Shown: piece after piece, positions 2,868 to 18,412 of the stretch
Numbering within the stretch: the stretch's first letter is position 1
How the letters are laid out: every line of letters begins with the position of its first letter
Source: Streptomyces taklimakanensis
GTDB lineage: Bacteria > Actinomycetota > Actinomycetes > Streptomycetales > Streptomycetaceae
Reading direction: 5' to 3'
Assembly: GCF_009709575.1 (NCBI RefSeq)
Contig: NZ_WIXO01000001.1
Coordinates: 3,164,001 to 3,228,000, forward strand
DNA: 64,000 bases
Notes under the pieces: generated by a model
The model's database searches: none
Seen by the model: only the letters and a program-made list of their open reading frames with translations
What the model was told of the DNA's origin: nothing
Translations under genes and position numbers: made by a program

Positions 2868-3636
2868 GGGCGGCCATCCCCTCCTGGTCGGGCGTCCAGG
2901 GCCGGGCACCGGCCCAGACGGCGTCGAAACTCTGAGCGTAGTTGTCGAACCACCCGGAGGCGTCGACTCTCCTGAGGTGGAGAAGAGGGTTGGCGCTGGC
3001 CGGCTGGCCCCAGATGTGCGGGTTGACCAGCAGGTTGTCGTCGTAGCGGAACATCGACGTGTAGAGCGTGGTGTCGTGCAGCCGCACCTCGCATCCCTCC
3101 TCGGAGAGCAGGGAGCGGTAGTAGGTCAGGGAGGCGCGGATCTTGGCGGCGAGGGTGTCGCCGATGCCTTCCTCCCGGCCCCGGACGGCGACCGCCCGGC
3201 CCGCCGGGTCGCCGAAGCACAGGCGGACCCGTACCCCGTCGGCCGCGCGCTCGGCGAGCATCTTGGCGACGTGCGGGTTGGACTGGGCGAAGAAGGTGCC
3301 GGAGAAGACGAGTACGCCGATCTCCCTCCGGGCCTCCTGCAGCAGTGAGAGCCACATCTCGCGGGGGACGCTGGCGCGGTTGGCGTAGGTGCCGACGAGT
3401 TCGGCGCCTGATCCTGCGGCGGGGCGGCCGGTCCGGGGTTGCGGGGCGGGCCAGAGGAACGTCTCCTCCACCCGCAGGTGCTGCGCGACACGGAAGCGGT
3501 GCCGCGGATGGGGTACGCGCCCACCCAGCCAGCGGCTGACGGTCTTGGGGTCCACCCCGCAGGCTTCGGCAAGCGACTCGGGTGGGACGCCGCGCTGGGC
3601 GAGTACGGAGTGAAGTCGCTCGTTCACAGAACCCAT
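2854..3636 (-). CDS. XRE-type regulator with DUF5919-like domain
   Basis: A 260-residue protein. Residues about 5-55 form an XRE helix-turn-helix (LAEACGVDPKTVSRWLGG). The remainder resembles the DUF5919 domain that accompanies such helix-turn-helix regions in Streptomyces; its conserved stretch is VLVFSGTFFAQSNP near the middle. The effector is unknown. It is divergent from the HAD gene across an 87-bp gap and overlaps the NUDIX gene by 14 bp, so it may control both directions. The ribosome binding site is weak; a GTG nine bases downstream (3627) is an alternative start. Confidence 0.75.
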   Translation of the reverse strand: MGSVNERLHSVLAQRGVPPESLAEACGVDPKTVSRWLGGRVPHPRHRFRVAQHLRVEETFLWPAPQPRTGRPAAGSGAELVGTYANRASVPREMWLSLLQEARREIGVLVFSGTFFAQSNPHVAKMLAERAADGVRVRLCFGDPAGRAVAVRGREEGIGDTLAAKIRASLTYYRSLLSEEGCEVRLHDTTLYTSMFRYDDNLLVNPHIWGQPASANPLLHLRRVDASGWFDNYAQSFDAVWAGARPWTPDQEGMAAHGQD

Positions 3637-3723
3637 GGAAGCCGAGGCGGGCGTGATCGGGCAAGGACGTTATGGGACGTTCCTGCGAAGCTGGTGCCGC
3701 GCCCGGGTGCTTACCCTGGCGGA

Positions 3724-4416
3724 ATGCAGCTCATCGTCCTGTGGGACATCGACCACACGCTCATCGACAACGCAGGGGTGAGCAAGGAGATCTACGCGGC
3801 CGCGTTCTCGGCACTGGCAGGCCGCCCGCCGACCGGACCGGCACGGACCGAGGGCCGCACAGACCGCATGATCATGCGGGAGATGTTCCTGCGCGAGGGC
3901 CTGCCCGAGCCGGACTGGACCGCCGTCGAGGCCGCCCTCACCCTCGCCGGCCAGGAGCGGCTTGAGGAGCTGCGCAGGCGTGGGACGGCTCTGCCGGGCG
4001 TACGGGACGCGCTCAAGGCCGTCTCGGTACAGGACGGTTGGGTGTCATCGATCCTGACCGGGAACATCGCGGCCAACGCCCGGGTGAAGCTGTCGGCTTT
4101 CGACCTCGACCCTCTGCTCGACCTGTCGGTCGGAGCCTACGGTGCCGACGCGCTCCAGCGCCCCGACCTCGTGGCCGTCGCCCGGGAGCGCGCCCGCCTT
4201 CTTCGCGATGTGCGCCCTGACGTGCCCGTGGTGCTGGTGGGTGACACGCCACGGGACGTGGAGTCCGCGCTCACCACGGGTTCCGGGATCGTCGCGGTCG
4301 CCTCGGGCATCCACAGCGCCGAGGAGCTGGCCGCCGCCGGCGCGTCCGTCGTACTGCCCGACCTGTCGGACACCGCGGACCTCCTGAGGATCCTGGAGTC
4401 CTTCGCGGCGCGCTGA
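3724..4416 (+). CDS. HAD-superfamily hydrolase (phosphatase-like)
   Basis: A 230-residue HAD protein. Motif I is DIDHT with nucleophile D8 and acid/base D10, motif II is SILTGN, and the motif III/IV region contains VGDTPRDVE. A helical cap lies between motifs I and II, as in the beta-phosphoglucomutase/phosphoglycolate phosphatase class. It probably dephosphorylates a small molecule. ATG 3724 follows TGGCGGA; the longer upstream frame is spurious because it runs through the divergent promoter. It sits about 107 bp before the radical SAM gene in the same direction and could be the first gene of that operon. Confidence 0.85.
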   Translation: MQLIVLWDIDHTLIDNAGVSKEIYAAAFSALAGRPPTGPARTEGRTDRMIMREMFLREGLPEPDWTAVEAALTLAGQERLEELRRRGTALPGVRDALKAVSVQDGWVSSILTGNIAANARVKLSAFDLDPLLDLSVGAYGADALQRPDLVAVARERARLLRDVRPDVPVVLVGDTPRDVESALTTGSGIVAVASGIHSAEELAAAGASVVLPDLSDTADLLRILESFAAR

Positions 4417-4523
4417 AAACGTCCCGAGACGTCCTCGGAGCGTCCGGATACGCGGTGACGCGGTCCCCGTACGCTCCGCCACCATCGGGTCTCCCACCAG
4501 GCGACTGGCCGGAGGAGGCCCAC

Positions 4524-5426
4524 GTGATCGCGGAAGTCACCGGTATCCGCAGGATCCGGATGCTGTACCTGCAGCTGCTGTACCGCTGCAACTTCGAGTG
4601 CCTGCACTGCTTCCACGGCACCCGGCTCCAGCACGCCGACGCCTTCACCGCCGAGCAGGCCGCCAACCTCCTCACTCTCATGCGGGACCGGTACGGCACC
4701 GAGGCCGTCACCTTCCTCGGCGGTGAGCCGTTCGTCTACAAGGACCTCGCCCGGGTGGTCCGGCACGCCCGGCGGGAGCTGGGCCTGCGGGTCGAGATCT
4801 GCACCAACGGCTACCGGATCGAGCGCCGGCTGGCCGAGATCGCCCCGCACCTGGACCTGCTGCGGGTCTCGTTGGAGGGTGTCGGCTCGACCAACGACCA
4901 CATCCGCAGGTCCGGGAGCTACCAGAGCGCGCTGAACGCGCTCGGCCTCGCCCGGGAACTCGGCGTCCCCACGGGCGCGACCATGACGGTCACCTCCCGC
5001 AACATCGACGAGGTACTGCCGCTGGCCCGCGTCCTGGAACACTTCGAGGTACGGCAGTTGAAGCTGCACTGTCTGCGTCCGGTCGGCAACGCCGCCGCCC
5101 ACCCGGAGCTCCTGGTCACCGAACCCGCCGCGTACGCCCGCCTGCGCGAGCGGCTCCGGGAGGCCCAGCCGGCCATCGAGGTGGTCGTCGACGAGGACCT
5201 GTCCGAGCACGGTGCCCCGGAGGTCTGCGCACCCGCCGGCGGCCCGGCCGAGATCGAGCGGATCGAGGCCGACCCGCGCGGTGCGCTCACCATGTCCTGC
5301 AAGGCCGTCGGCAGGGACGCGCACGCCTTCTGGTACGACAAGCGCGCCAACCGCATCGTCCACCGGCCCACCGCCACCGACGAACTGGCCCTCGCGGTGC
5401 CGGACGTGGTGTGCGGCCGTGTCTGA
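4524..5426 (+). CDS. Radical SAM enzyme
   Basis: A 300-residue protein with the radical SAM CX3CX2C cluster motif at C22, C26 and C29 (RCNFECLHC) and the SAM-binding GGEP about 50 residues later. Four later cysteines (LHCLRP, EVCAPAGG, MSCKAVG, DVVCGRV) suggest a short twitch- or SPASM-like extension, typical of enzymes that modify peptides or alcohols. GTG 4524 is chosen for its excellent GGAGGAGG (4511-4518); a further upstream ATG has no such site. Its stop overlaps the next start by 8 bp. Radical SAM identity is certain; the substrate is unknown, though a nearby small peptide gene makes peptide modification plausible. Confidence 0.88.
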   Translation: MIAEVTGIRRIRMLYLQLLYRCNFECLHCFHGTRLQHADAFTAEQAANLLTLMRDRYGTEAVTFLGGEPFVYKDLARVVRHARRELGLRVEICTNGYRIERRLAEIAPHLDLLRVSLEGVGSTNDHIRRSGSYQSALNALGLARELGVPTGATMTVTSRNIDEVLPLARVLEHFEVRQLKLHCLRPVGNAAAHPELLVTEPAAYARLRERLREAQPAIEVVVDEDLSEHGAPEVCAPAGGPAEIERIEADPRGALTMSCKAVGRDAHAFWYDKRANRIVHRPTATDELALAVPDVVCGRV

Positions 5427-6060
5427 CCGCCCGCTGTTCGAGAGCCTCGAAGGACTCCGCGGCACCGGCAAGTCGACCATCGCGCCGATGCTGGCGGCGG
5501 CTCGCGGCGCGGTGCTGGTCCCGACCGTACCGCCCGCCTACCAGCGCCTGCGGCGCGACGTGGACGCGCGGGGGAACGTCGAGGCACGGATGTGCTTCCA
5601 CCTCTCCGCGCTGTTCGCCGCGGCCGACGAGATACGGCGCCATCTCGCCCTCGGCATCCCGGTCGTCGTGGAGAGCTACTTCGCCCGCTGCCTGGCCACC
5701 CACCACGCTTTCGGCACCCGCCTCGGGATCACGCTGCCGCCCGACCTGCCGCAGCCCGTCACCTACCACCTGGCCTGCGACGAGGACGAGCGCCGGTGGC
5801 GCCTGGCCGGGCGGGACAAGCCGGTGACCCACTGGGACGCCCTCGCCGAGGCCACCGTCGACCGGCTCACCGCCGCCTACGCCCGGTTCCCGATGCACCG
5901 CGTGGACACCACCGGCCTCGACCCCGACGAGGTCCTCCGGGCGATCCTCACCATCGACACGCAAGGAGCCCACCACCGTGCGGACACAGAGCCTGTGGGA
6001 GCACACCCTCACCTTCTTCCCCCAGTTCCTCGCCGCGCTGAGGGAGCACACCGCCGCTGA
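5419..6060 (+). CDS. P-loop nucleotide kinase-like protein (dTMP-kinase fold)
   Basis: A 213-residue protein with Walker A GLRGTGKST at residues 12-20. The layout resembles thymidylate-kinase-type enzymes (N-terminal FESLEGLRGTGKST, then VVVESYFAR), although the substrate-binding residues of true Tmk are not evident. The GTG start overlaps the radical SAM stop by 8 bp. The frame stays open 83 bp into the methyltransferase gene, an unusually long same-strand overlap. The last 30 residues are rich in His, Arg and Pro and may be functionally neutral. It could phosphorylate a pathway intermediate or act as a regulatory ATPase. Confidence 0.72.
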   Translation: MSDRPLFESLEGLRGTGKSTIAPMLAAARGAVLVPTVPPAYQRLRRDVDARGNVEARMCFHLSALFAAADEIRRHLALGIPVVVESYFARCLATHHAFGTRLGITLPPDLPQPVTYHLACDEDERRWRLAGRDKPVTHWDALAEATVDRLTAAYARFPMHRVDTTGLDPDEVLRAILTIDTQGAHHRADTEPVGAHPHLLPPVPRRAEGAHRR

Positions 6061-6655
6061 TGCCACCGTCGCGGTCGTCGGCGCGAGCGACGGCAAGTTC
6101 GTCCTGCCGCTGGCAGCCGCCGGTTACCGCGTCATCGCCATCGAACGCGACCCGCTGGCCCTGCACGGCGGCGAGGTCCGCCTTCCGGGTGAGGAGCACA
6201 CCCACGCGATGGGCCTGATCGACCGGCTCAAACTTGAAGAGCTCCACGACCGCGTGCAGGTCGTCGAGGGCGACTTCCTCCAGAACGAACCGCCGGGTAC
6301 GCCCTGCGACGCGGTCTGGACGAGCTGTTCCTGGCATTACAGTGCCAACCACCACCGCCCGCTCGCCGAGTTCGTCCACCACATGCAGCGCCTGGTCGGT
6401 CCGGGCGGCCTCATCGGCGCGGAGTTCATGATGCCCGTCGAGCACCGCCACCACCTGGTCGAGCACTACACGTCCTCGGAAAGGCTCCGGCGCCACTTCA
6501 TCGGCGACTGGAACGTGCTGCTCACGCTGCGCACGAACGAGTTCACCGAACGGGCCCACGTCGGCCGGCTCCAGGACCACACCCATCGCATGGGTCTGAT
6601 CCTCGCGGCCCGTACGCCCGGCCCCTCCCACCGTTACGGGAAGAAGGACTCATGA
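5978..6655 (+). CDS. Class I SAM-dependent methyltransferase
   Basis: A 225-residue Rossmann-type methyltransferase. Motif I is VAVVGASDGKFVLPLA near residues 31-46, followed by an acidic loop ending in AIERDPLA; the motif IV region is DAVWTSCSWHYS. GTG 5978 follows AAGGAG (5964-5969) and lies inside the 3' end of the kinase-like gene. The stop overlaps the CYTH start as ATGA (6652-6655), implying coupled translation. The acceptor is unknown; the context suggests modification of the cluster's own product. Confidence 0.82.
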   Translation: MRTQSLWEHTLTFFPQFLAALREHTAADATVAVVGASDGKFVLPLAAAGYRVIAIERDPLALHGGEVRLPGEEHTHAMGLIDRLKLEELHDRVQVVEGDFLQNEPPGTPCDAVWTSCSWHYSANHHRPLAEFVHHMQRLVGPGGLIGAEFMMPVEHRHHLVEHYTSSERLRRHFIGDWNVLLTLRTNEFTERAHVGRLQDHTHRMGLILAARTPGPSHRYGKKDS

Positions 6656-7239
6656 AGCACGAGTACGAAGCGAAGTTCCTCGCCGTCGACGTCACCGACC
6701 TGCAGACCAGGCTGACCCGGCTCGGTGCCGTCCAGGTGCTCCCGCGCACCCTCCTCACCCGCAAGATCTTCGAGAACGACGCCCTCGACGTCGGCGCCTG
6801 GATCCGCCTGCGGAACGAGGGCACCCGGTCCACGCTCACGCTCAAGCAGGTCACCGACGCCACCACCATCGACGGCACCACCGAGGTCGAGACCGAGGTG
6901 GCCGACCTGCACGCCATGGCCGAGATCCTTCGCCGCATCGGGCTGCGCGAGGTCCGCTACCAGGAGAACTACCGGGAGGAGTGGCGCCTGGGCGAGGTCG
7001 TCTTCGACTTCGACACCTGGCCGGATCTCCCCACCTTCGTCGAGATCGAGGGCCCGGACGAGGCATCGGTCCGCCAGGCCGCCGCCCTCCTCGAACTCGA
7101 CTACTCCGAGGCCCGGTTCGGCAGCGTCGACGAGATCTACAAGAGCGAGGCGGGCCGCGACATCCTCTCCGAGCCCACCCTCCTCTTCGCCGACTCCGAG
7201 AAGGACGAGTCCCGCCCCGTGCCCACCCAGGGCACCTGA
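6652..7239 (+). CDS. CYTH-domain protein (class IV adenylate cyclase-like)
   Basis: A 195-residue triphosphate tunnel metalloenzyme fold. It starts MKHEYEAKF, carrying the ExExK signature at E4, E6 and K8. Alternating basic and acidic strands follow (WIRLRNEG, TLTLKQV, EVETEV, FVEIEGPD). The family includes class IV adenylate cyclases, thiamine triphosphatases and inorganic triphosphatases, so it acts on a triphosphate-bearing ligand. The start is coupled by ATGA to the methyltransferase. The acidic C-terminal tail beyond about residue 175 is extra. The role in the pathway is unknown. Confidence 0.85.
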   Translation: MKHEYEAKFLAVDVTDLQTRLTRLGAVQVLPRTLLTRKIFENDALDVGAWIRLRNEGTRSTLTLKQVTDATTIDGTTEVETEVADLHAMAEILRRIGLREVRYQENYREEWRLGEVVFDFDTWPDLPTFVEIEGPDEASVRQAAALLELDYSEARFGSVDEIYKSEAGRDILSEPTLLFADSEKDESRPVPTQGT

Positions 7240-7256
7240 CCCCCGGGGGGAGCACC

Positions 7257-7628
7257 GTGCTTCCGGAACCGGCCGGGCCACACAGGGCGGCACCGGGCAT
7301 CCCCGACTTCGCCCGGGGCGGGCTTCCCGCCCCGGCGGCCACCGACGACGGAAACCGGTGGGTCGACGGCTCCTGCTGGCTCTACTGCGGCCGGCGGTGG
7401 ACCCGCGTCCTGTGGGTCGGTCCCGTGAACGTGGCCGGTGTCCAGGCACCGATGTACGCCTGCGGCCCCTGCATCCGGAAGCTACAGGAGCAGGTATGGC
7501 AAGCCGTCCTCCTCAACGACGCACCGACGCGCTCCGCACAACCCGGCGCTCCCGCCGGAGCCGAACCGCCCGGCAGGCGGCGTGGAGGAAGGCACCGAGC
7601 ACGAGGCGGCTTCCCGCGTCGCGGCTGA
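7257..7628 (+). CDS. Small cysteine-pair protein, function unknown
   Basis: A 123-residue open frame starting at GTG 7257, seven bases after GGGGGGAG and 18 bp after the CYTH stop. The middle carries two cysteine pairs, SCWLYC (CX3C) and ACGPC (CX2C), about 30 residues apart, flanked by tryptophans: a likely zinc or Fe-S knuckle. The C-terminal 35 residues are Arg/Gly/Pro-rich and may not be under protein selection. Overlapping short frames in this stretch (for example one ending at 7767) have poorer starts. No family is recognised. Its position in the operon suggests an accessory or carrier role. Confidence 0.55.
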   Translation: MLPEPAGPHRAAPGIPDFARGGLPAPAATDDGNRWVDGSCWLYCGRRWTRVLWVGPVNVAGVQAPMYACGPCIRKLQEQVWQAVLLNDAPTRSAQPGAPAGAEPPGRRRGGRHRARGGFPRRG

Positions 7629-7782
7629 ACACCGCCCGGGCCGGCGAACCGCCCCCTCCTACCCCGTCCCCGTGGACGACTCCCCTACGGCCACGGAGAC
7701 GGCCCCGGCAACACCAGCACCTCCGCACACCACAGCTTCCCGCCGAACCCGGCGGGAGAACCGGTAGAGGAAGGAGCACCAA

Positions 7783-7944
7783 GTGGGAGACACCACCCCC
7801 TCCGTGGAGGAGGGTCTTCTGGTCGCCGTGGAAGTCCTCGCGAGCGTCCACGACCGGCACGACAGCAGCGCCTCCGACCCGGGGCAGGGCAGCTCCGGTG
7901 ACGGCCCCTGGCCCGGTGGCGACGGCCTGAACCACGCGGCGTAA
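7783..7944 (+). CDS. 53-residue peptide, candidate RiPP precursor
   Basis: A short gene with GTG 7783 and a strong GGAAGGAG (7769-7776). The product starts MGDTTPSVEEGLLVAVEV and ends GPWPGGDGLNHAA. Its N-terminal half is acidic and helix-prone (leader-like). Its C-terminal half is rich in Gly, Ser and Asp, with DRHDSSASD and a single tryptophan, and contains no cysteine. It lies among modifying-enzyme genes and is followed within 14 bp by a strong hairpin, an arrangement typical of precursor peptides. A perfect 7-bp-stem hairpin (7738-7757) lies just upstream. No homologue is recognised, so the precursor role is inferred from context only. Confidence 0.55.
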   Translation: MGDTTPSVEEGLLVAVEVLASVHDRHDSSASDPGQGSSGDGPWPGGDGLNHAA

Positions 7945-7957
7945 CCGCCGGCTCTCC

Positions 7958-7989
7958 GGTGGAGGGGCCGCGCACGCGGCCCCTCCACC
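7958..7989 (+). terminator. Hairpin between peptide gene and oxygenase gene (attenuator-like)
   Basis: A perfect 14-bp stem (GGTGGAGGGGCCGC at 7958-7971 pairing with 7976-7989) closes a four-base loop GCAC. It starts 14 bp after the peptide stop and 38 bp before the oxygenase start. No U-run follows, as is usual in Streptomyces. It probably limits read-through so that the peptide is made in excess over the downstream enzymes. Confidence 0.75.
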
Positions 7990-8026
7990 TTCCACCTCCC
8001 ATCTGACGCAAGGAAGGGAACAGCCC

Positions 8027-9232
8027 ATGGAGCACCGTCTGGTCCGCGCCGTCGAAGAGGCACTGGGGTGGGACGGCCCGGCCCCGCTCGGAAAGGACTT
8101 CGCCCGGGGAAGCATCGGCGACCCCCAGCTCGTCACCCGACTGCTCACGCCCGCGCGCCTGCTCGACATGGTCATGCGCCGGAGCCTGGCCAACCCCCAG
8201 TTCCGCTTCTTCAAGGGCGGCGAGGAGCTGCACCCCGACGCGTACCTGGACCGGCAGGTCACACCCCGGGGCCAGGCGATACCGATGGCCGGCATGCGCC
8301 GCGTGGGCAGCCTGCTGCGCGAGGGCGCGACGCTGGTCCTGGACCAGTCGAACGTCTTCGACCCCACGATGGAAGTGACGTGCCGAGCCCTGCAGTGGTG
8401 GTCCCGGGAGCACGTCCAGGCGAACGTGTACCTGACCACCAACGACGCCTCCGGCTTCGACCTGCACTGGGACGACCACGACGTCCTCATCGTCCAGCTC
8501 GCCGGAGAGAAGCAGTGGGAGGTACGCGGCACATCACGGCCCGTGCCCATGTTCCGGGACGCCGAGCGGAACAACACCCCCAGCGAGGAGATCGTGTGGA
8601 CCGGCACCATGAAGGCCGGCGACGTCATGCACATCCCCCGCGGCTACTGGCACGCCGCCACCCGGGCGGGCCGGGGCGGCGGCCACAGCACCCACGTGAC
8701 CTTCGGGTTCGCCAAGCGCACCGCCGTGAGCTGGCTGACCTGGCTCGCCGACTGGTCCCGCCAGGAGGAGGTGTTCCGCCATGACCTCGACCGCTGGGGC
8801 AGCCCGGAGGAGCAGCAGGTCCAGGAACGGCGGCTGACCGACGCGGCCTCCCGGCTCCTCGACGCACGCGGCCCGGCGGAGTTCCTCCGGCTCCGCGAGC
8901 GCGAGGCTCCCTCCGGTCGGCACGTTCCCTTCCTGGAGATCTTCGGGCCGCTTGAGGCCGTGGTGTGTGTCAGCGAGTTCCCGCCGCTGATCCAGGAGGA
9001 GCAGGAGACAGTCACCGTGGTGGCCGCAGGCAAGAAACTCACCTTCGCCTCCAAGGCCCTGCCCGGACTCCGCCTGCTCCTGAGCGGCCACCCGGTGCAG
9101 CTGGACGAGGCCGCCCAGGTCGTGGGCGCCGAGGTGGGAGCCCTGGCGAAGATCCTGGTGGAGGAGGAACTGTGCGCGAGCCTGACCCCCGAGTTGTCCT
9201 CGGGCTACACCGATCTCGTCATGAGCGCCTGA
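8027..9232 (+). CDS. JmjC/cupin_4-type 2-oxoglutarate oxygenase
   Basis: A 401-residue protein with a cupin core. Candidate Fe(II) ligands are H147 and D149 (LHWDDHDV) and H209 (RGYWHA), and VQLAGEKQWEV follows the first pair, as in cupin_4/ribosomal-oxygenase proteins (YcfD, MINA53, NO66). The C-terminal third (LDEAAQVVGAEVGALAKI) resembles the winged-helix tail of that family. Such enzymes hydroxylate Arg or His side chains in proteins using O2 and 2-oxoglutarate. ATG 8027 follows AAGGAAGGG. The gene follows the small peptide gene and overlaps the reductase by 61 bp, so a peptide substrate is attractive but unproven. Confidence 0.82.
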   Translation: MEHRLVRAVEEALGWDGPAPLGKDFARGSIGDPQLVTRLLTPARLLDMVMRRSLANPQFRFFKGGEELHPDAYLDRQVTPRGQAIPMAGMRRVGSLLREGATLVLDQSNVFDPTMEVTCRALQWWSREHVQANVYLTTNDASGFDLHWDDHDVLIVQLAGEKQWEVRGTSRPVPMFRDAERNNTPSEEIVWTGTMKAGDVMHIPRGYWHAATRAGRGGGHSTHVTFGFAKRTAVSWLTWLADWSRQEEVFRHDLDRWGSPEEQQVQERRLTDAASRLLDARGPAEFLRLREREAPSGRHVPFLEIFGPLEAVVCVSEFPPLIQEEQETVTVVAAGKKLTFASKALPGLRLLLSGHPVQLDEAAQVVGAEVGALAKILVEEELCASLTPELSSGYTDLVMSA

Positions 9233-10032
9233 TCCTCACCAGCGCGCTGGAACTCGGTGTCGAGGCGATCGACACCAGTTTCAACTACCACGGCTTCTCG
9301 GCCCACACCGCCCTGGCGGAGGTGGGGGGCGACCTCCTGCCCCGCTTCACGGTCTCCACCAAGGTCGGATTCTTCCCGGCCGCCGACGGGGTCGAGCACT
9401 CACTCGACCCCGGCAGGCTCCGGGCAGCGGTGGAACAGACCAACCGTGATCTCGGACGCGTCCCCGACCTGGTGTTCCTGCACAATCCGGAACGCTCCCT
9501 GCCCGAACGCTCCTCCGTTGGTCAGGAAGCGCTGGGTACGGCGTGCGCTGCCCTGGAGAGAGCCGCGGCGAACGGGCTGTGCGGGGCCTGGGGCGTCTCC
9601 TCATGGGACCCCCTCCCACTGCCCGGCCTCGTGGACGACACCATGCCCAGGCCCGACGTGCTCATGATTCGGGCGGGGCTCCTGGTTCCGATCGACGTCC
9701 TGGAGGCGTCGGAGGCCCTGGCAGCCCGATGGGACCTCGACGCCGAACGGCTCTGGGGCATGAGCCCCTTCGGCGGCGGGGCCGGAAATCCGCTGTGGGA
9801 GACGTTCGACCCACGGGTCTTCATCCAGAACCCTGACGACGACCTTTCCGCCGTACAGGCCGCGTTCCGCATCGCCTGCCGGCTGCCGCAGGTGGGGAAG
9901 GTCGCCGTCGGCACGGACGACCCGTCCCACCTGGCGGAGCTGGTCGCCGCCCTGCGGTACGAGGCGGATGTCGGCAGCCTGCGCACGTACCGGCGGCTTC
10001 TCCGCGAGCGGGCGGGCCGTCAGCCGGTCTGA
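9172..10032 (+). CDS. Aldo/keto reductase family protein
   Basis: A 286-residue AKR-type barrel. The catalytic tetrad is visible: D34 and Y39 (AIDTSFNYHG), K64 (STKVGF) and H104 (VFLHNPER). A later GMSPFGGG may contact cofactor phosphate. GTG 9172 is preceded by GGAGGAGG inside the oxygenase gene, giving a 61-bp overlap; later in-frame starts would remove the conserved first strand. The predicted reaction is NAD(P)H-dependent carbonyl reduction. The N-terminus is shorter than in typical 310-340 residue AKRs. The stop overlaps the convergent APH-fold gene by 13 bp. Confidence 0.8.
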   Translation: MREPDPRVVLGLHRSRHERLILTSALELGVEAIDTSFNYHGFSAHTALAEVGGDLLPRFTVSTKVGFFPAADGVEHSLDPGRLRAAVEQTNRDLGRVPDLVFLHNPERSLPERSSVGQEALGTACAALERAAANGLCGAWGVSSWDPLPLPGLVDDTMPRPDVLMIRAGLLVPIDVLEASEALAARWDLDAERLWGMSPFGGGAGNPLWETFDPRVFIQNPDDDLSAVQAAFRIACRLPQVGKVAVGTDDPSHLAELVAALRYEADVGSLRTYRRLLRERAGRQPV

Positions 10033-10877
10033 AGTTCCTCCGCGATCCGTGCCGTTGTCCGGCGTGCCGGCTCCAGGCGGGGGTCCTCGGGGTGGGCGTC
10101 CGGGGCCAGGACCTTCGCGCAGACGAACAGGGTCATCAGCTTGCCGTCCCGGCTCTCCAGGTCGCGACGCCGCTCCTGGCGGACGCGTTCGGCCAGGGCC
10201 GGGACGGCGAGGGAGTTGCCCCACAGCGATGCGGCATCCAGCCCTCGGGGTGCCATGCCCCAGTCCTCCCAGTCGAACAGGCAGAACTTGGGGCCGGTCA
10301 TGTTCGCCCAGTTCAGGTCCGCGTGCGCGGGCCGCCACTGGCTCACCGTCGTATCCATGCCATCGGGCAGGAAGCGGCGGGCCGCCTCGGTGACACCGCC
10401 CTGGGTGATCGTGACGGTGTCCGGGGTGGCGACGCGGCTCGTGCGGTGGGCGGCCAGCGCGTCCAGCGAGGCGTTCAACGCCTGCCACCACGCATCCGGC
10501 AGTCCGGGATCGGTGGCCAGGACGCTGGTGCCGATCGGCGCTCCGGGCAGCAGATCGGTCTCATCCGCCCGCCACATCGCGGCACCGTCCGGCTGACGCC
10601 ACACCACCGCCCGGTGCCACCGGGGCTGCGCGACTCCTTCCAGGACGGCCGCGCACTCGGTGCCGTTCCAGCCCTGGCTCCCGATCTTCTCCATCCGGCG
10701 CCGCTCGATGCGCACCCATGTGCCCCGGTCCGTCCGCGCACCCAGCGAGCGCCGCTTGCGCACCAGCGTGTCCCGGTCCAGCCGGGTCTGGAGGGACCGC
10801 TCGACATCGTCGAGCACAGCGTCGACCGGCTCGATTCTCAGGTCGGCCGGTGCGGCGGCAGGCGCGGAAGATGGCAT
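10020..10877 (-). CDS. Aminoglycoside phosphotransferase (APH)-fold kinase
   Basis: A 285-residue protein with the APH/choline-kinase catalytic loop HADLNWAN (H185, D187, N192) and the metal-binding DWE (D202-E204). The N-lobe has WVRIERRRMEK but no classic P-loop. ATG 10877 has AAGGAGG immediately upstream; an in-frame start at 10910 is less likely. Family members phosphorylate antibiotics, sugars or other small hydroxyl compounds. It is convergent with the reductase (13-bp overlap), so it could provide self-protection for the adjacent cluster or be independent cargo. Confidence 0.78.
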   Translation of the reverse strand: MPSSAPAAAPADLRIEPVDAVLDDVERSLQTRLDRDTLVRKRRSLGARTDRGTWVRIERRRMEKIGSQGWNGTECAAVLEGVAQPRWHRAVVWRQPDGAAMWRADETDLLPGAPIGTSVLATDPGLPDAWWQALNASLDALAAHRTSRVATPDTVTITQGGVTEAARRFLPDGMDTTVSQWRPAHADLNWANMTGPKFCLFDWEDWGMAPRGLDAASLWGNSLAVPALAERVRQERRRDLESRDGKLMTLFVCAKVLAPDAHPEDPRLEPARRTTARIAEELQTG

Positions 10878-10970
10878 GGAACCTCCTTGGCGGCCGTCCG
10901 ACGCTAGCAAGGAACCGGCCTCCCATGTCTCTGGAAGGGAAGACGCGGCACAGCGGTCCGCTCGGTGTGG

Positions 10971-12638
10971 TCAGCGGTGCCGCGTCCGGGACGGCTGCGG
11001 GTCTGGAGCGGCGGGGTGCTGCGCGGTGGTGCGTGCTCTGGCTGCCTGGGCTTGTGGGCTGGGGGCGTGGCGTTGGCCGAGGCGGTGGATGCGCCAGGTC
11101 AGGGTGCGGGCAGGGTGGCGGGCGTCGTTCAGGGTGCGCTGGCCCAGGGCCTGGTCGAGGAGGGTGACGGCGTTGTGGCCTGTGGTCTCGGCGTCGGCGA
11201 GCACGGCGGCGAGGGCGTCCCAGGCGGGGTCTTTCAGGATGCGCTCGGCGTGCTCGGGGGCCGCCCGTTGGAGATGGAGGGTGAGGCGTTGCTTGGTCTG
11301 GAGGCTGGGGGTGCGGTGGGCGAAGTGGTCCAGGACCGGCCCGGCGATTCGTGTGTAGGCGGTCTGGAGGTGGAGAAGGGTCTGCTCGGCAGCTGCTTCC
11401 TGCTGAGCGTGCCGGTGGGCGCGGTGCCAGTGCCTGGCGTAGGCCACGGCGAGGAGCGCGGCGTCCAGCAGCATGGCCAGCCCGGCGCCGTCCGCCGGGG
11501 CGGGGTCGCGCACGATCGCCTGAACGCTGCGGCGCAGGACACGCGCGCTGTCGAGGTCCGCGGTGATGCGGGAGCGGGTGGCGCGTTCGAAGGCGACGGC
11601 GGCCTGCCCCAGCTCGTTCCGCAGGCCGGCCGGTGCGGCAACCGGCAGGAGGTCCAAGGCTCCGCCGAGGGCGACCAGCTGCCCCTGCGCCACCCTGTCG
11701 TCGCTGCCGGTGAGGTGTACAGGGATGCGCTCGGTGGCCGCGGTGGCCTGGTGCCAGGGATCGGCCGGGCGGGCGGGTGCCGGCCGGCGGGTGGGGGCGC
11801 CGAGGCGTTGGCGGATCTTGGGCAGGGAGAGGTCGTCGGCCAGGGTGGAGCCGGAGTACCACACGGGCTCGCCTTGGCCGTTGGTGTCGCCGGGCAGGGC
11901 GACGCTGTAGCCCAGCAGGTCGCCGGACGGCCCGGCCTTCGGGCGCACCTCCACACCGGAGGCGGCCAGCAGCGCGAAGAACCCGGCCTCGTCGTCGGCG
12001 GCGGCCACCGCGCGGCGGACCCGCAGGCGCAGGATCTCCCGCGCGGTGGCGTCCCGGCCCTGCCGTTTGGCCTTGAAGTGCTCCTTGCTGGTGGGTCGCT
12101 TGGCCGCGGTGCCGTCGCCGAGCTTCAAGCGCCGAAGCCCGTAGTCGGCCTCGATCCTCCGTGCCTCCTTCTGGACGGCGCGATAGTCGTGGCCCCGGTC
12201 GGGGCGGCGGCCGTCCTGGCGGACGAGGGTGGCGGCGATGTGGATGTGGTCCTCGGCATGCCGTACCGCCACCCAGCGGCACGCCTGGCCGTCCCCGTCG
12301 GAGGCGAGACCGGCGGCGGCCACCATCCGGCGGGCGATGTCCGCCCACTGGGCGTCGGTGAGGACCGGGTCCTCCGGTGCGGCACGGACCGGGCAGTGCC
12401 AGATGGTGTTCTTCGGCGCCCGGTCGCCCAGCAGGGTCACCGGCTGGTCGAGCTGGGCCGCGAGCTGCCTTTCCACTGTCTTCGGGTCGCGGTGCGGGAT
12501 GCGACCGGGGTCGGGGGCGAAGCCGTTCCAGGAGGCCACCAGGTGCGGATCGGTGTGCTCGTTGGCCCGGCCCGTGCCGAACAGGTAGGCGACCAGACGG
12601 CGGGTGCTGCCTCTGCCGAGGATGATCTTCGGTATCAC
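10971..12638 (-). CDS. Relaxase/mobilization nuclease (MobA/VirD2-like)
   Basis: A 555-residue protein. The N-terminus IPKIILGRGSTRRLVAYLF is typical of actinobacterial relaxases. The three-histidine metal motif is RHAEDHIHIAAT (H127, H131, H133), which positions the nicking reaction at oriT. The C-terminal half is Ala/Arg-rich and helical. The nicking tyrosine is not obvious; the N-terminal Y18 is a candidate. It lies 4 bp downstream of mobC, so the two form a relaxosome operon. High-GC long frames on the opposite strand here are shadows. Confidence 0.85.
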   Translation of the reverse strand: MIPKIILGRGSTRRLVAYLFGTGRANEHTDPHLVASWNGFAPDPGRIPHRDPKTVERQLAAQLDQPVTLLGDRAPKNTIWHCPVRAAPEDPVLTDAQWADIARRMVAAAGLASDGDGQACRWVAVRHAEDHIHIAATLVRQDGRRPDRGHDYRAVQKEARRIEADYGLRRLKLGDGTAAKRPTSKEHFKAKRQGRDATAREILRLRVRRAVAAADDEAGFFALLAASGVEVRPKAGPSGDLLGYSVALPGDTNGQGEPVWYSGSTLADDLSLPKIRQRLGAPTRRPAPARPADPWHQATAATERIPVHLTGSDDRVAQGQLVALGGALDLLPVAAPAGLRNELGQAAVAFERATRSRITADLDSARVLRRSVQAIVRDPAPADGAGLAMLLDAALLAVAYARHWHRAHRHAQQEAAAEQTLLHLQTAYTRIAGPVLDHFAHRTPSLQTKQRLTLHLQRAAPEHAERILKDPAWDALAAVLADAETTGHNAVTLLDQALGQRTLNDARHPARTLTWRIHRLGQRHAPSPQAQAARARTTAQHPAAPDPQPSRTRHR

Positions 12639-12642
12639 CGGC

Positions 12643-13248
12643 TCACCGCCCCGCCGTCACCTGGGCGATGGCGGTGTCCAGCTCGGCGATCGACGCCTCG
12701 ACGCGGTCCAGGAGGCGGCGGACCGCCTCCCGCTCGGGCAGGGCGCCGTCCTGGTTGAGGTGCCGGGCGAGCTGGTTGAGGTTGCTGCCGACCTTGCCCA
12801 GCTGCCCGTTGGCGGCCATCAGCACTCTGACCGCGGCGCGGTAGTCGGCGACCGCCGCCGCGGGGTCGTCGGCGCGGGCGGCGGCCAGCGACGCCTCGGC
12901 GACGTAGCCGCCCACCTGCATACCACTGGCCCCGGCCGCCTTTGCAAGGTCGGCGAACTCGCCGTCGCTGTAGCGAGGATGCACGCGGCGCTTACGCAGT
13001 CGGCGCTCGCGCAGACGACGACGCGGCGTGGGCGGCTGCGGCGCGCTCGGCGACGGCTCGGCGGCTCCTCCCACGGTCGGCTCCCCCGGGCCGGCCGACC
13101 CCGGCGCCCCCGCAGCGCCGGATGCCTCCGCCACCCCTGGGGCGGAGACCGGGTAAGGACTCCTAACCCGACAACTTGCTGCCCCGATGACGGCCGTGGG
13201 TGCCTCCTGCTGCGATCTTTGGGCGCGGTTGGCGTGTGGGTGGTGCAT
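12643..13248 (-). CDS. MobC-like relaxosome accessory protein
   Basis: A 201-residue protein. The C-terminal 110 residues match MobC: basic RRLRERRLRKRRVHPRYSD, then a helical region with NGQLGKVGSNLNQLARHLN near residues 150-168. MobC binds oriT DNA and helps the relaxase open it. The N-terminal 80 residues are low-complexity Pro/Ala/Gly. ATG 13248 has GGAG 9 bases upstream; GTG 13134 is a possible shorter start and would leave the inverted repeat at 13151-13169 intergenic. Confidence 0.78.
   Translation of the reverse strand: MHHPHANRAQRSQQEAPTAVIGAASCRVRSPYPVSAPGVAEASGAAGAPGSAGPGEPTVGGAAEPSPSAPQPPTPRRRLRERRLRKRRVHPRYSDGEFADLAKAAGASGMQVGGYVAEASLAAARADDPAAAVADYRAAVRVLMAANGQLGKVGSNLNQLARHLNQDGALPEREAVRRLLDRVEASIAELDTAIAQVTAGR
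13151..13169. repeat. Inverted repeat, candidate oriT element
   Basis: GGGTAAGGACTCCTAACCC is a nearly perfect 19-bp palindrome just inside or upstream of mobC, followed by ACAACTTGCTGCCCC. An inverted repeat beside a nick site next to mobC is the usual oriT plan in mobilizable elements. The nick position cannot be assigned from sequence. Confidence 0.4.
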
Positions 13249-13944
13249 GCGCGGTGTCTCCGTGGTGGCTGTGGGTGGCGGGCGCCGGACGAAGGCGATC
13301 AGAGGTTCAGGGCGTGGCGGGCTCGTGATGCCGTTGCCGTCCTGCTCGCGGACGGTCCTTGTCCGGCGTATTCACTGAGAGCCGTGCAGCGGCTTGGTGG
13401 GACCGCGTCTGGGTCCCGTCTTCGCTGGCTTTGTCCTGTGGTCCTCGGTCCCCGGGGCGGTTCGCGGTTTTCGGTCCCCGGGATGGTCCCGGTCCCGGCT
13501 CGGTCCCCGCCGCCTGTGTCTGCGGGCGGGGACGGTCCCGAACGCGGTCTGCTGTCGGTTTGCGGGGACCGTCCCGTGGTCGGCAGGCAGGCGGTGGTCC
13601 CGGGGAACGGAGTTGCGCAGAGGGGCCATGGGCGGCGGACCTGCGGTGATGCTGGTCCGTGGTCCCGGTGGGTGTGCGCGGTCCCCGATCTTCGGGGCGG
13701 TCCCCAGTCCCACAGTCCCCGAGGGGGCTGCGGTCCCCGACATGGCTTGGTCCCCAGTCCCCGGTTCCCAGCGCGGTCCGCGTTCCGGTCCCCGGCTACT
13801 GGTCTCTGAGGGGACCGGGGACCGCGGGGACCGTGGTCCCGGGTGGTCCGGTCCCCGGCTCTGTTCGGCGGGGACCGCGAGGGTCTGGTCGTCTTCTTCA
13901 GCAGCGGGCCGGTCCGCCGCCGTTCCGTTCGGGTGTGGGGTTGT
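13249..13944. repeat. Gene-free tract with dense GGTCCC/GGGACC iteron-like repeats
   Basis: About 700 bp without a convincing gene. Between 13399 and 13876 I count 22 exact copies of GGTCCC or its complement GGGACC, many extended to CGGTCCCCGG. Starts include 13399, 13412, 13447, 13473, 13485, 13491, 13502, 13534, 13565, 13596, 13661, 13680, 13699, 13732, 13749, 13787, 13811, 13818, 13827, 13835, 13850 and 13871. Both orientations occur and spacing is irregular. The tract lies between mobilization and replication genes, where an origin or oriT control region would be expected. A 123-codon open frame on the minus strand (13372-13743) is a by-product of the repeats. Confidence 0.7.
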
Positions 13945-14700
13945 TCAGCGGGTGCGTCCTGGGACCGGAGTCGGCGGAGGGGCGGCCACAGCGGTCGGCA
14001 CCGGGGCGTGCGCGGGTGTCCGGCGTCGATCGGAGCCGGTGAGGATGACGCGGTCGGTCATCTCGGCGAGGCGGGAGGCGACGCGGTCGCCGAGCGCGGT
14101 GCGCAGCTCGGTGGTGGGGAGGTTGGTGGTGATCAGGGTGGGGCGCAGGTGCTCGTACCGGTGGTTGATCAGCCGGTAGGTGAGTTCCTCGGTCCAGTCG
14201 CTGGCCTTGGCGGCGCCGAGGTCGTCCAGGAGCAGCAGTGGGCAGCGGGCCAGGGCATGCAGGTCGCGTTCGCCGTCGTGGCCGGAGCGGGGGCGCAGGC
14301 GGGCGTAGAGGTCGGCGGCGGTGATGGCCTCCCAGCGCAGGCGGACCCCGGCGGTCAGGAGAGTGCGGATGGCGCCGTACGCCTGGTGGGTCTTGCCGGT
14401 GCCGGTGGGTCCGGCGATCAGCAGGGACGGGCCCTCGGCGATGCCCGGGGCGCCGCCCGGCCCGGGGCGGCCGGTGCGGGTGATGGTGTCGGCCCAGGCG
14501 GTGATCCGCGGGTGGTCGGCCAGGGCGCGGCGGTAGCGGGCGGGTATGCGGGCGTCGGCCAGCTCCAACGCGGTGACCGGCTCGTCGGCCGGTTCTTCCA
14601 GGGGAGCGGCGGGGTCGATGCCGCGGGCGGTGAGGATCGCGTTGAGCCGGTCGGCCAGCGGGCCGACGCGCTGTGGCGCGCGGGTGTGGGTGGTGGTCAC
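13945..14700 (-). CDS. DnaC/IstB-like AAA+ ATPase (helicase loader)
   Basis: A 251-residue AAA+ protein. Walker A is AGPTGTGKTHQ, Walker B is LLLLDDLGA, sensor I is TLITTNLP, and an arginine-finger region follows at DRVASRLAEM. This is the DnaC/IstB-type ATPase that loads replicative helicase or assists transposition; beside a replication-initiator-like gene it is most likely a helicase loader. GTG 14700 overlaps the upstream stop as GTGA (14700-14697), so an earlier in-frame ATG at 14745 is not needed. Confidence 0.82.
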   Translation of the reverse strand: MTTTHTRAPQRVGPLADRLNAILTARGIDPAAPLEEPADEPVTALELADARIPARYRRALADHPRITAWADTITRTGRPGPGGAPGIAEGPSLLIAGPTGTGKTHQAYGAIRTLLTAGVRLRWEAITAADLYARLRPRSGHDGERDLHALARCPLLLLDDLGAAKASDWTEELTYRLINHRYEHLRPTLITTNLPTTELRTALGDRVASRLAEMTDRVILTGSDRRRTPAHAPVPTAVAAPPPTPVPGRTR

Positions 14701-15629
14701 AGCTCGCCCCCGTAGGCTGCCTCGACGTCGGCCGGGTTCATCCACGGGCGGTGGGCGGCGGGTGCGGTCCGGGCGGCGTTCATCGCCTCGTGGACGAGGC
14801 TGGGCAGGGTGCTGGGGTGCAGGCCCTTGGCGCGGTGGCGTTCCAGCCCGGACCGGATGTGGGCGGGATCGATGCCCTCGGCCAGCAGCTTGCCGACCTC
14901 CCGGCCGAGGTGTCCCAGGACGTCCTTCGGGGGGCGGTGGGCGCAGGCGGTGACGTACTCGCCGATGAGCTGCCGGGCCGAGACGGTGTCGGGTGCGGGG
15001 GCGCTCGCGCCCCCCGACGGAGTAGTTCCTAGATCCATGATCCTAGGTCCTAGATCCGGACGGTGAGGTGTCACTGCCGCTGCCGGGAGGTCTCCGTGCT
15101 TCTTCACGGAGGGTTTCGTGAAACCGTCCTCACCTGCGGTTTCGTCAGCAGGTTCGGGATTCGGTGAGGGCTCGCGCGTCTCACGGGAGTCTTCATGGAG
15201 GGTTCCGTGAGGCGTTGGTGCGGGCTCCGTGACACCGGTCCGTGCGGCAGGCGCGGTGGTGCTCCCCGCGGTGCCGGACGGAGCGTCGTGGTGCGGGCAG
15301 CCGGGGAGGCGGCTCTTGCTGGGCCGGTTGATCTTCTGGTGCTGGTGCCAGGTGACGATGTGCAGGTAGCGCTTGTCGTCCGGGCTCTTGTAGCGGCAGA
15401 TCAGGCCGGCGTCCGCGAGCTGGGCGAGGTCCTTCTCGACCTCGGCGGGCGTGTGCTCCGGGCGTAGGACCCACAGCTGTCCGGCGATGATCGCGGCGTG
15501 GTCGCGGTGGCGGCCCTGGTCGTCGGCCTGGGTGAGCAGGCCGAAGAAGGTCCGCTCGGCGGTCAGGGGGACGGCGGCCAGGGACTCGGAGACGAATGCT
15601 TCGGGCTTGATGGTGCGGATGCGTGCCAA
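14697..15629 (-). CDS. Replication initiator/replisome-organiser-like protein
   Basis: A 310-residue protein starting at TTG 15629 (ARIRTIKPEAF), the typical opening of actinophage and ICE winged-helix replication proteins. Residues 1-100 form a winged helix (AERTFFGLLTQADDQGR, LAQLADAGLICRYKS, YLHIVTWHQHQKINRP). A Pro/Thr/Glu-rich linker with internal DNA repeats at 15028-15057 follows. The C-terminal helical domain is DnaD-like (LGREVGKLLAEGIDP). It is coupled to the loader gene by a GTGA overlap. I infer initiation of element replication. Confidence 0.7.
   Translation of the reverse strand: MARIRTIKPEAFVSESLAAVPLTAERTFFGLLTQADDQGRHRDHAAIIAGQLWVLRPEHTPAEVEKDLAQLADAGLICRYKSPDDKRYLHIVTWHQHQKINRPSKSRLPGCPHHDAPSGTAGSTTAPAARTGVTEPAPTPHGTLHEDSRETREPSPNPEPADETAGEDGFTKPSVKKHGDLPAAAVTPHRPDLGPRIMDLGTTPSGGASAPAPDTVSARQLIGEYVTACAHRPPKDVLGHLGREVGKLLAEGIDPAHIRSGLERHRAKGLHPSTLPSLVHEAMNAARTAPAAHRPWMNPADVEAAYGGEL
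15028..15057. repeat. TCCTAGRTCC repeats inside the replication gene
   Basis: TCCTAGATCC occurs at 15028-15037 and 15048-15057, with TCCTAGGTCC between them at 15041-15050. They form a low-GC island in a very GC-rich gene. Lambda-type replication genes carry their origin iterons inside the initiator coding sequence, so these are origin candidates. Confidence 0.55.
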
Positions 15630-16122: not shown

Positions 16123-16851
16123 ATGCAGGCTAGTAATGGAGATATGGCAGCGCGATCACTGGAAATCGGCCCCGTAGGAATACGGGCAGCCCGGACCATC
16201 GAAATCCTCCGCACCGAGCGTGGCCTCGCACAGCGTCAGCTGGCCGGCCGGGTGACCGCCCTCGGCCGCCCGATGTCCAACACGATGCTGTCCCGCATCG
16301 AACGCGCCCAGCGCCGCTGCGACGTCGACGACCTCGCCGCGATCGCCGAAGCCCTCCTCGTCTCACCCCTCGTGCTGCTGCAGGGCCCGACCGCCCCGCG
16401 ACGAGACCCGTCCGGTACCGCTGACCGAGCACGCCCACCACCGAGTCAGGACCCGCCGCCCTTGCACCGACCTTCGCCCACGCCCGCGACCGCACACCTC
16501 CCGCACAACCCGGGCGACGCCCCTCTGCCGCGCCTCTACCGACCCGAGGAGATCGCCGAAGCACTCGGCTGCTCTGCCTGGTGGGTCAAGGACCGGGCCC
16601 GGCGGAGCCTCATCCCGCACACCCGCGTCGGCCGCGCCTACCGCTTCACCGCCGGCCACCTCGCCGAGATCGTCCGCCTCCACGAGGAGACACCGGCACG
16701 GCCCGCCCAGCCGGCCGGGAACGTGTCCGCTCCGTCCTCCCCGGCTGCCACCCTGGACGGATCCCCACAGCCGCGCCGCCACCCCACCACTTCGGTGAAC
16801 CACCTGCGGGCCCGGCCACCGCGCCGGGCCCAGTACGACGCCACCGCGTAA
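16123..16851 (+). CDS. XRE regulator with excisionase-like second HTH
   Basis: A 242-residue protein with two DNA-binding modules. Residues about 19-85 are a Cro/C1-type helix-turn-helix (IEILRTERGLAQRQLAGRV, then MLSRIERAQRRC). Residues about 135-185 resemble an AlpA/Xis-type winged helix (LYRPEEIAEALGCSAWWVKD, then TRVGRAYRF). A proline-rich linker joins them. Combining repressor and excisionase-like modules suits a switch between integration and excision. ATG 16123 lacks a good ribosome binding site; M8 at 16144 is an alternative behind TGGAG. The integrase gene follows 46 bp later. Confidence 0.75.
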   Translation: MQASNGDMAARSLEIGPVGIRAARTIEILRTERGLAQRQLAGRVTALGRPMSNTMLSRIERAQRRCDVDDLAAIAEALLVSPLVLLQGPTAPRRDPSGTADRARPPPSQDPPPLHRPSPTPATAHLPHNPGDAPLPRLYRPEEIAEALGCSAWWVKDRARRSLIPHTRVGRAYRFTAGHLAEIVRLHEETPARPAQPAGNVSAPSSPAATLDGSPQPRRHPTTSVNHLRARPPRRAQYDATA

Positions 16852-16897: not shown

Positions 16898-18412
16898 TTG
16901 GGTTTCGCGGAGAAGCGCGGAAACTACTGGCGCGGCCGGTACAAGACCGCGCCCGGCAAGCACCTCACGGTCGTCGACGAGCGGGGCAAGGCGGTCAGGT
17001 TCGCCACCAAGGGCGAGGCCCAGCGTGCCGCGAGCGAGGCCGAGAACAGGTACCGGCGCGGCGACTGGCGCGACCCGGCGCTCGGCCAGGAGACCTTCGG
17101 CGAGTACGCGAACCGCTGGTACGCCGCCCAGGACCTGGCAGCCTCGACCATGCAGAACTACAAGCGCCACATCGAGGAGCACCTGCTCCCCGCGTTCGAG
17201 GACAAGGCGCTCGCCGGCATCCTCCGCTCGGACGTCGATCTGTGGGAGAAGAAGGAGAAGGCCCTCTACGCGGCCTCCAGCGTCAAGACCTGGCGCTCCA
17301 CGCTCCACCTGATCCTCGAGGACGCGATCGACGAGGGCCTGATCACCTCCAACCCGGCGGCCAGACGACGCGGGCGCGGCAAGCGCGCCGGCCGCTCCCG
17401 CGACCGCGGCCCCGAGAAGACCATCACCGATCCTCTCGGCGCCCTGCTGATCGCCGAGAGAGCCGCGCTGCTCTCCGGCCGCGACGACGAGTTCGTCGCC
17501 GTGGTCCTCATGGCGTACACCGGAATGCGGTGGGGCGAGACCGTCGGCTTGGAGACCGAGTTCACCCGCCCCGGCGCCGTCCGCGTCGAGCACCAGCTGT
17601 ACGAGCTGGACTCCGGGACGCTGATCCGCTGCCCGCCCAAGGACGACAGCTACCGCACCATCGACGCCCCCGACTTCCTGTCCACCCTGATCGCCGACCA
17701 CATCGCCCGCACCAAACCGACCCCGTGCCCCTGCCACGGCAAGCGGTACGTCTTCCGCGGCCAGGGCACGGCGCGCACCGGCGGACACCAGGGCGCCAAG
17801 CTGGCGGACGTCGCCCGCCGCGCCGGCGTCTCCACCGGCACGGTGTCCAACGTCCTCAACCACCCCGAGCGCGTCCGCGAGGACACCCGCGCCAGCGTGG
17901 AGACGGCCATCACCGAACTCGGCTTCATACGTGGCGGTGTGCCGACGGAGAACGCGGCCCACTGGCGCCGCAACGGCTTCGCCACCTGGCTGTTCACCCC
18001 GGCCGCCTCGGGTTGGTACCCGAAGAAGGCACCCCAGGAGGCCCGGCCCGTCCCCCTGCTCGGCGAGCCCTGGCCCGGCATCCCGGCACGGGGGCGCGGC
18101 GCCGGCGGACGGGCCGACTCCTGCTGGCTGCCGATCACCAAGGGCCTCACCCCTCACGGCCTGCGCCACACCCACAGGACCGTGATGGAGGACCTCGGCA
18201 CCGAGAAGGTCCTCATGGACGAACGCATGGGCCACATCGACGGCTCCGTCTCCGCCCGCTACGCCCACGTCACCCCCGGCATGCGCAAGCGCCTCATGGC
18301 CGGTCTGACCGAGCAGTGGGAGGCAGCCCTCGACGCTCGTCTGACAATGAGCCCTCACTCTCCGGTGAGAGTCCTTGACGTGCTCCTACGGGCGCGTGCG
18401 GTACTTGGCTAG
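16898..18412 (+). CDS. Tyrosine integrase with embedded LacI-type HTH
   Basis: A 504-residue tyrosine recombinase. An N-terminal arm-binding/AP2-like region (1-60) and a core-binding SAM-like domain (about 65-150) precede the catalytic domain with R211 (TGMRWGE), H420 and R423 (HGLRHTHR), H446 (MGHID) and nucleophile Y455 (ARYAHV). Residues about 302-344 are a LacI-type DNA-binding domain (LADVARRAGVSTGTVSNVLN) inserted between strands of the catalytic domain, next to a CPCH motif. TTG 16898 is supported by GAAGGAG at 16881-16887. It integrates and excises the element; its att site is not directly adjacent. Confidence 0.9.
   Translation: MGFAEKRGNYWRGRYKTAPGKHLTVVDERGKAVRFATKGEAQRAASEAENRYRRGDWRDPALGQETFGEYANRWYAAQDLAASTMQNYKRHIEEHLLPAFEDKALAGILRSDVDLWEKKEKALYAASSVKTWRSTLHLILEDAIDEGLITSNPAARRRGRGKRAGRSRDRGPEKTITDPLGALLIAERAALLSGRDDEFVAVVLMAYTGMRWGETVGLETEFTRPGAVRVEHQLYELDSGTLIRCPPKDDSYRTIDAPDFLSTLIADHIARTKPTPCPCHGKRYVFRGQGTARTGGHQGAKLADVARRAGVSTGTVSNVLNHPERVREDTRASVETAITELGFIRGGVPTENAAHWRRNGFATWLFTPAASGWYPKKAPQEARPVPLLGEPWPGIPARGRGAGGRADSCWLPITKGLTPHGLRHTHRTVMEDLGTEKVLMDERMGHIDGSVSARYAHVTPGMRKRLMAGLTEQWEAALDARLTMSPHSPVRVLDVLLRARAVLG
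17801..17929 (+). other. LacI HTH insertion within the integrase gene
   Basis: This stretch encodes integrase residues about 302-344, with the LacI-family order: recognition helix VSTGTVSNVLN, then a hinge-proximal helix ending ITELGFI. It lies between catalytic R211 and H420 without breaking the frame. Confidence 0.7.

Follow-up and report, generated by a model that had tools for sequence, protein, structure and literature searches.

The window, by which we mean the whole 64,000-nucleotide stretch of Streptomyces taklimakanensis DNA that was analysed, houses an integrative, replicating and probably mobilizable Streptomyces element. Its genes encode an integrase, a RepO-like protein, a DnaC-like ATPase, MobC and a relaxase, and the gap separating the dnaC-like gene from mobC holds a dense array of GGTCCC/GGGACC hexamers. 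The features are listed below by window coordinates and strand.

10971..12638, minus strand: MobA/VirD2-type relaxase (Pfam Relaxase, 5e-8)
12643..13248, minus strand: MobC/NikA-like accessory protein (Pfam NikA-like, MobC)
13115..13182, minus strand: candidate oriT, GCAGCAAGTTGTCGG plus two hairpins, in the 5′ end of mobC (conserved across a 19-locus alignment; DNA fold z -3.0)
13212..13213, no strand: end of similarity to the related loci L001, L002 and L049 (96.3-96.6% leftwards), putative module-exchange breakpoint beside the oriT candidate (DNA comparison)
13399..13876, no strand: array of 22 GGTCCC/GGGACC, consensus CGGGGACCG, non-coding in this element (hexamer count, shuffles, consensus)
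13945..14745, minus strand: DnaC/IstB-like ATPase of the helicase-loader type (Pfam IstB_IS21, 1e-14; NCBIfam DnaC/DnaI-type matches below cut-off)
13961..13966, minus strand: 23rd hexamer, within the 3′ end of the dnaC-like gene (hexamer count)
14697..15629, minus strand: RepO-like protein (no Pfam match; named for its place in the gene order and its internal conserved core)
15027..15057, minus strand: candidate oriV core GGATCTAGGACCTAGGANNNNGGATCTAGGA in repO, with rare CTA codons (11 of 11 repO genes examined)
16123..16851, plus strand: HTH protein with a Cro/C1-like and a MerR-like part (assigned by visual inspection of the sequence)
16898..18412, plus strand: tyrosine integrase with an inserted LacI-type HTH (Pfam)

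The LacI-type insert of the integrase spans residues 302-344, ahead of the C-terminal catalytic part, and relatives with 79-87% identity align with this integrase over an equal length. To the left of the relaxase (3439-9232) lie genes for HAD hydrolase, radical SAM and JmjC-type proteins, which are either cargo or chromosome. A search for tRNA-linked att repeats found no 16-mer of the tRNA-Pro region repeated in the window, and the ends of the element were not found.

A preliminary description of this DNA had reported 22 exact hexamers in about 480 bp, far above chance, in both orientations and within extended contexts, and each of these points stands. The recount yields 22 exact GGTCCC/GGGACC hexamers on the two strands of 13399-13876; within 13249-13944, 16 of them read GGTCCC (plus) and six GGGACC (minus). 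By comparison, when the 696-bp intergenic stretch was shuffled 2000 times with its dinucleotides preserved, the count averaged 2.54 and never exceeded 9. The spacings are irregular, and the copies extend to a 9-bp consensus, CGGGGACCG / CGGTCCCCG. The rest of the window never reaches more than three hexamers in any 478 bp, and the word is scarce across the window as a whole (66 observed vs. 116 expected). The genome-wide count that had been proposed as a check disclosed no similar cluster: a pattern of three GGTCCC with gaps of 0-30 matches 20 times in the 6.1-Mb genome, nine times within the array itself and 11 times scattered over 10 other places. The array is a real, dedicated feature of a mobile element.

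Related elements, also proposed for comparison, carry the array with the same 9-bp consensus, and neither of the two findings named beforehand as refuting, a similar density elsewhere in the chromosome or absence from relatives, was made. A relaxase search returned 80 loci (81 with this element), 76 of which have at least 3 kb upstream of the relaxase; membrane ORFs in these 76 were identified by homology, a hydrophobicity filter being too strict. Fifty-one contain a DUF2637-type gene, and among them one has a GGGACC array, seven have a CGGTCA array and the remaining 43 show either different words or no clear array. The 25 loci devoid of such a gene divide into 17 with a GGGACC array, three with a CGGTCA array and five with neither (L008, L014, L022, L070 and L078). 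A DNA-pattern scan of 295 Streptomyces genomes, independent of the relaxase, supplied 30 loci (L081-L110). Nine of these have at least 10 copies in 500 bp at seven or more different spacings, and all nine match proteins of this element family; four others have at least 10 copies at no more than five spacings, and none of the four belongs to the family. Mobilization genes (mobC and relaxase) also lie near the array in 14 of 15 longer stretches, hand-chosen for irregular-looking spacing and thus more biased than the automatic L081-L110 set, the exception being L203, which has no family genes. Two of the eight viral contigs with at least 10 copies at seven or more spacings belong to the element family.

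The gene-free setting noted in the preliminary description holds for this element, where the array is flanked by the dnaC-like gene, which stops at 13945, and mobC, which starts at 13248, but in many relatives the array is intragenic. It occupies the non-coding dnaC-mobC gap here and in L052 and L194, the 5′ part of a RepAM/DUF3631 open frame in the L015 group, L041 and L200-202, a position after c81 in L055 and L199, and the inside of a DUF2637-type gene, before its C-terminal HTH, in L024 and L189-198. The consensus CGGGGACCG is common to four sets of arrays: non-coding ones beside repO/dnaC, non-coding ones beside other modules, those at RepAM 5′ ends and those in DUF2637 genes. Among the three intergenic arrays (this element, L052 and L194), alignable patches reach no more than 46 bp, yet 22-32 copies have been kept. 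In the coding arrays (47 genes) the word falls in every one of the three frames and on either strand, which indicates that the constraint acts on the DNA. Seven aligned RepAM-type arrays differ at a rate of 0.057 in motif columns vs. 0.111 outside, with rarer hexamers of the same composition ranging from 0 to 0.26, a comparison that supports motif constraint only mildly.

These observations make it extremely improbable that the array is a functionless compositional accident or a slippage product. The host is GC-rich, and some GGGGACC clusters elsewhere (L106, L081 and L090) are plain tandem repeats; here, however, the copy number far exceeds the shuffle maximum, the spacing is irregular, and relatives retain the word amid diverged flanks, to which the RepAM columns add a little weight. 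A G-quadruplex role was discarded, since the CGGTCA arrays could not form one.

Array presence was checked in turn against the relaxase, MobC, the integrase, the HTH regulator, RepO/DnaC and RepAM, and it goes with none of them. The LacI-type HTH of the integrase was considered as a binder because many of the sites in relatives are palindromic. It was dropped as a candidate, since integrases 79-87% identical go with different words or with none at all, and some array-bearing elements, the L015 group among them, encode another integrase.

An oriT would be expected to be conserved together with relaxase and MobC, and this is not what was found. Three loci, L001, L002 and L049, correspond to this element over 5.2 kb (8001-13212, the edge of the compared stretch) at 96.3-96.6% DNA identity, mobC and relaxase included, and have a different upstream half that is free of any array. 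Given three elements with a 96% identical mobilization module and no array, neither relaxase nor MobC requires it. In addition, the 13115-13182 segment in mobC is likely to be the oriT itself. The earlier suggestion of an oriT control region has thus lost ground, a core role now being unlikely. It is true that the array adjoins mobC, and that irregular arrays keep company with the element family in the scan and with mobC and relaxase in the hand-picked stretches; binding by MobC or relaxase in an oriT or relaxosome control region is nonetheless very improbable, in view of the array-free modules, of the better oriT candidate and of the RepAM group, in which a whole gene separates array and mobC. 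At 13212 the 96% identity drops abruptly to none, the front half (integrase, replication and array) being swapped relative to L001, L002 and L049, and the position of this join beside the oriT candidate suggests that modules were exchanged there.

A replication origin had also been put forward. Iteron-type repeats should be present in every element with RepO, and the array is present in three of the 11 repO genes' elements examined, whereas a CTAG-rich core lies inside all 11 genes. In this element the core, at 15027-15057, is likely to be the heart of oriV; it uses rare CTA codons for a conserved GGATCTAGGA-type core in repO. Downstream of the RepAM genes, inverted repeats and a GC-rich hairpin occur in L015 (7199-7350) and L065 (7040-7240), with words differing between elements, and these are likely RepAM origins. 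Moreover, the repO/dnaC, RepAM, DnaB-like and c81/c82 modules are each found both with and without an array. What survives of the origin proposal is an accessory role, the minimal oriV being unlikely. Such a role is the main rival to the reading preferred below: the hexamers would be iterons, or belong to a region with accessory or copy-control function, with RepO/DnaC or host factors as binders. Three elements (the present one, L052 and L194) have the array directly behind the gene for the DnaC-like helicase loader, the RepAM group has it within the 5′ part of the initiator gene, and in the phage-like contigs L135 (7105-7386) and L165 (4305-4477) a similar GGTCCC array comes right after Prim-Pol/AAA_25 and AAA_25 genes, respectively. 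Against this stand the separate core of repO, the separate repeats and hairpin of the RepAM elements and the independence of the word from replication type, and we regard an origin function as possible but on the whole doubtful. The comparison with iteron-type origins (lambda O-like, or Streptomyces rep with iterons) runs along the same lines: short repeated words lie by replication genes in both cases, but repO has its own conserved core and the array word does not depend on the replication module.

A different association emerges from the DUF2637-type membrane proteins. When their genes carry an array, it lies directly upstream of a C-terminal three-helix HTH domain. Across 91 DUF2637-type genes, array similarity correlates with HTH similarity (partial r 0.50, with none of 500 permutations as high) and not with similarity of the membrane part (partial r 0.03); at the level of sequence, the array word tracks the HTH, not the membrane domain. 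The GGTCCC-type HTH was found in 57 of the 295 Streptomyces genomes. Of 34 genes retrieved with nothing but the HTH as query (those of L238-L277 with at least 80 bits, leaving out 13 genes found via their array), 32 have at least 10 copies in the 1 kb upstream, and the other two are at contig ends. Divergent HTHs go with altered words: four of six weaker matches have CCGGACC arrays, and one 81-bit HTH gene has an array that is mainly GGGGACG. L189 amounts to a natural swap, its membrane part being 74% identical to that of a gene with a GGTCA array while its array is of GGTCCC and its HTH of the GGTCCC type. On the other hand, array and HTH are adjacent in DUF2637 genes, and their co-variation could reflect joint inheritance of one segment. 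The predicted HTH structure is moderately confident (pLDDT 75-77), and fold searches with this model returned nothing convincing, with a best Foldseek E of 1.3 and a best VIA-align 2 Z of 5.0 for a ribosomal chain, the others being lower and tied. Identity with FtsK-gamma was rejected, a single c8-type domain reaching just E 0.1 and the GGTCCC type giving EF-hand-like chance matches.

Together with the known systems described below, this leads us to a preferred reading, to which we assign a probability of roughly 45%: the array would be a multi-copy cis-acting docking site for a protein, clt/TRS-like or centromere-like, present here in an "orphan" form without the gene of its protein. The approximately 22 copies of CGGGGACCG, irregularly spaced and in both orientations, would serve as protein-recognition words, and the array as a stand-alone version of the module that sister elements have in their DUF2637-type gene, directly upstream of the HTH. 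Several HTH-carrying membrane proteins might bind it. Binding would hold the DNA of the excised element at the membrane, and this in turn could aid maintenance, spread between mycelial compartments or hand-over for transfer, as for TraB-clt or a centromere. In the present gene-less element the binder would be a supposed trans-acting protein or a still unrecognised protein of the element. Binding, membrane docking and the role in maintenance, spread or transfer are all steps that we infer from sequence patterns and analogy. The partition-like site of the preliminary description came closest of its three proposals, in that relatives tie a multi-copy site to a membrane-anchored HTH family; the protein, however, is missing here.

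The docking reading owes its form to two precedents, since recognition of repeated words is known from clt and TraB/TraA, and a site within the gene of its own binder from sps and SpdA2. According to PMC3583192, the words of clt are repeated and 7-9 bp long, and the protein that binds them is the membrane-anchored TraB/TraA, whose recognition helix is in a C-terminal winged HTH. As in the clt/TRS of the FtsK-like TraB/TraA systems (pSVH1, pJV1, pWTY27), words are multi-copy, direct and inverted, and differ between elements, and the protein family linked to the array in relatives combines a membrane part with a C-terminal HTH. Unlike them, elements of the array family encode a relaxase and MobC, their arrays reach about 30-40 copies, and this element is without a protein gene. 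No FtsK/SpoIIIE-type translocase was detected among 10 Pfam-scanned proteins, which include some flanking genes, and the DUF2637-type proteins scanned gave no Pfam match to an FtsK motor. For sps, PMC4170104 places it inside spdA2, ascribes to it an effect on stability and describes two to three copies of a 12-bp palindrome. The DUF2637 genes of relatives resemble sps/SpdA2 of pIJ101-type plasmids in having the site of a predicted binder inside its own gene, with the link to stability being known for sps; they differ in their tens of copies of a 9-bp word (22 of the hexamer core here) and in the membrane-anchored HTH family, and the sps palindrome GGGACCGGTCCC is absent from the 64-kb window. 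As regards parABS, no ParA/ParB match occurred among the 10 Pfam-scanned proteins, a set that covers small genes only partly. Actinobacterial AICEs and IMEs share the integrase, the replication module and sometimes RepAM (DUF3631), but here relaxase and MobC replace TraB, and the accessible part of PMC3218068 mentions no arrays. A published description of such arrays was not found in the open literature searched, including the accessible parts of PMC9513070 and PMC3218068. Multi-copy recognition arrays of mobile elements are already known; it is the orphan arrays that raise a further question.

In 20 of the 25 elements without a DUF2637 gene the word is GGGACC or CGGTCA, which are also the two words seen in HTH-carrying genes. 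In this genome no gene matches the HTH at E ≤ 10, and none of its six DUF2637 genes has a GGTCCC array. More broadly, the HTH was present in one of about 22 orphan-array genomes (24 were examined, two of which, G073 and G003, appear to duplicate L041 and L027), compared with 57 of the 295 genomes sampled across the genus (Fisher p 0.09), and a helper resident in the same genome is thus unsupported. A bolder, rather unlikely extension of the docking reading is that relaxase-type Streptomyces elements share a modular address system, with a motor-less membrane receptor, DUF2637-type plus HTH, whose gene bears an array of its target words, word and HTH changing together; orphans such as this one would have dropped the receptor gene, kept the address and become satellites that use the receptors of other elements in transfer or spread. 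The array might instead be a decoy or incompatibility locus titrating the HTH membrane protein made by rival elements, and it would fit this that orphan arrays bear only the words of HTH-carrying elements and that HTH genes seem rarer in their company. This rarity is not significant, however, and there is no sign of competition, which leaves titration improbable.

DUF2637-type proteins are common in Streptomyces (44 matches at E ≤ 0.01 in eight genomes), yet they are barely named in the literature searched. If the HTH reads the adjacent array, the family gains a testable DNA target and the address word of each element can be read from its sequence; if the orphan reading is true, orphan arrays would give easy access to the ties between helpers and satellites among mobile elements. 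Other words occur in comparable settings. In this same genome, a DUF2637 gene (L308, contig C1, about 3306100-3308100) has 25 CTGCCA/TGGCAG in the 600 bp before another C-terminal HTH-like end. Two Streptomyces plasmids, L313 (NZ_CP108607.1, 26686-28164) and L320 (7899-9227), have DUF2637-like genes with GGCACA or CGCACA arrays; these genes are followed by coiled-coil-looking ones, and L313 also carries genes of the TraM-recognition and SCO6880 families.
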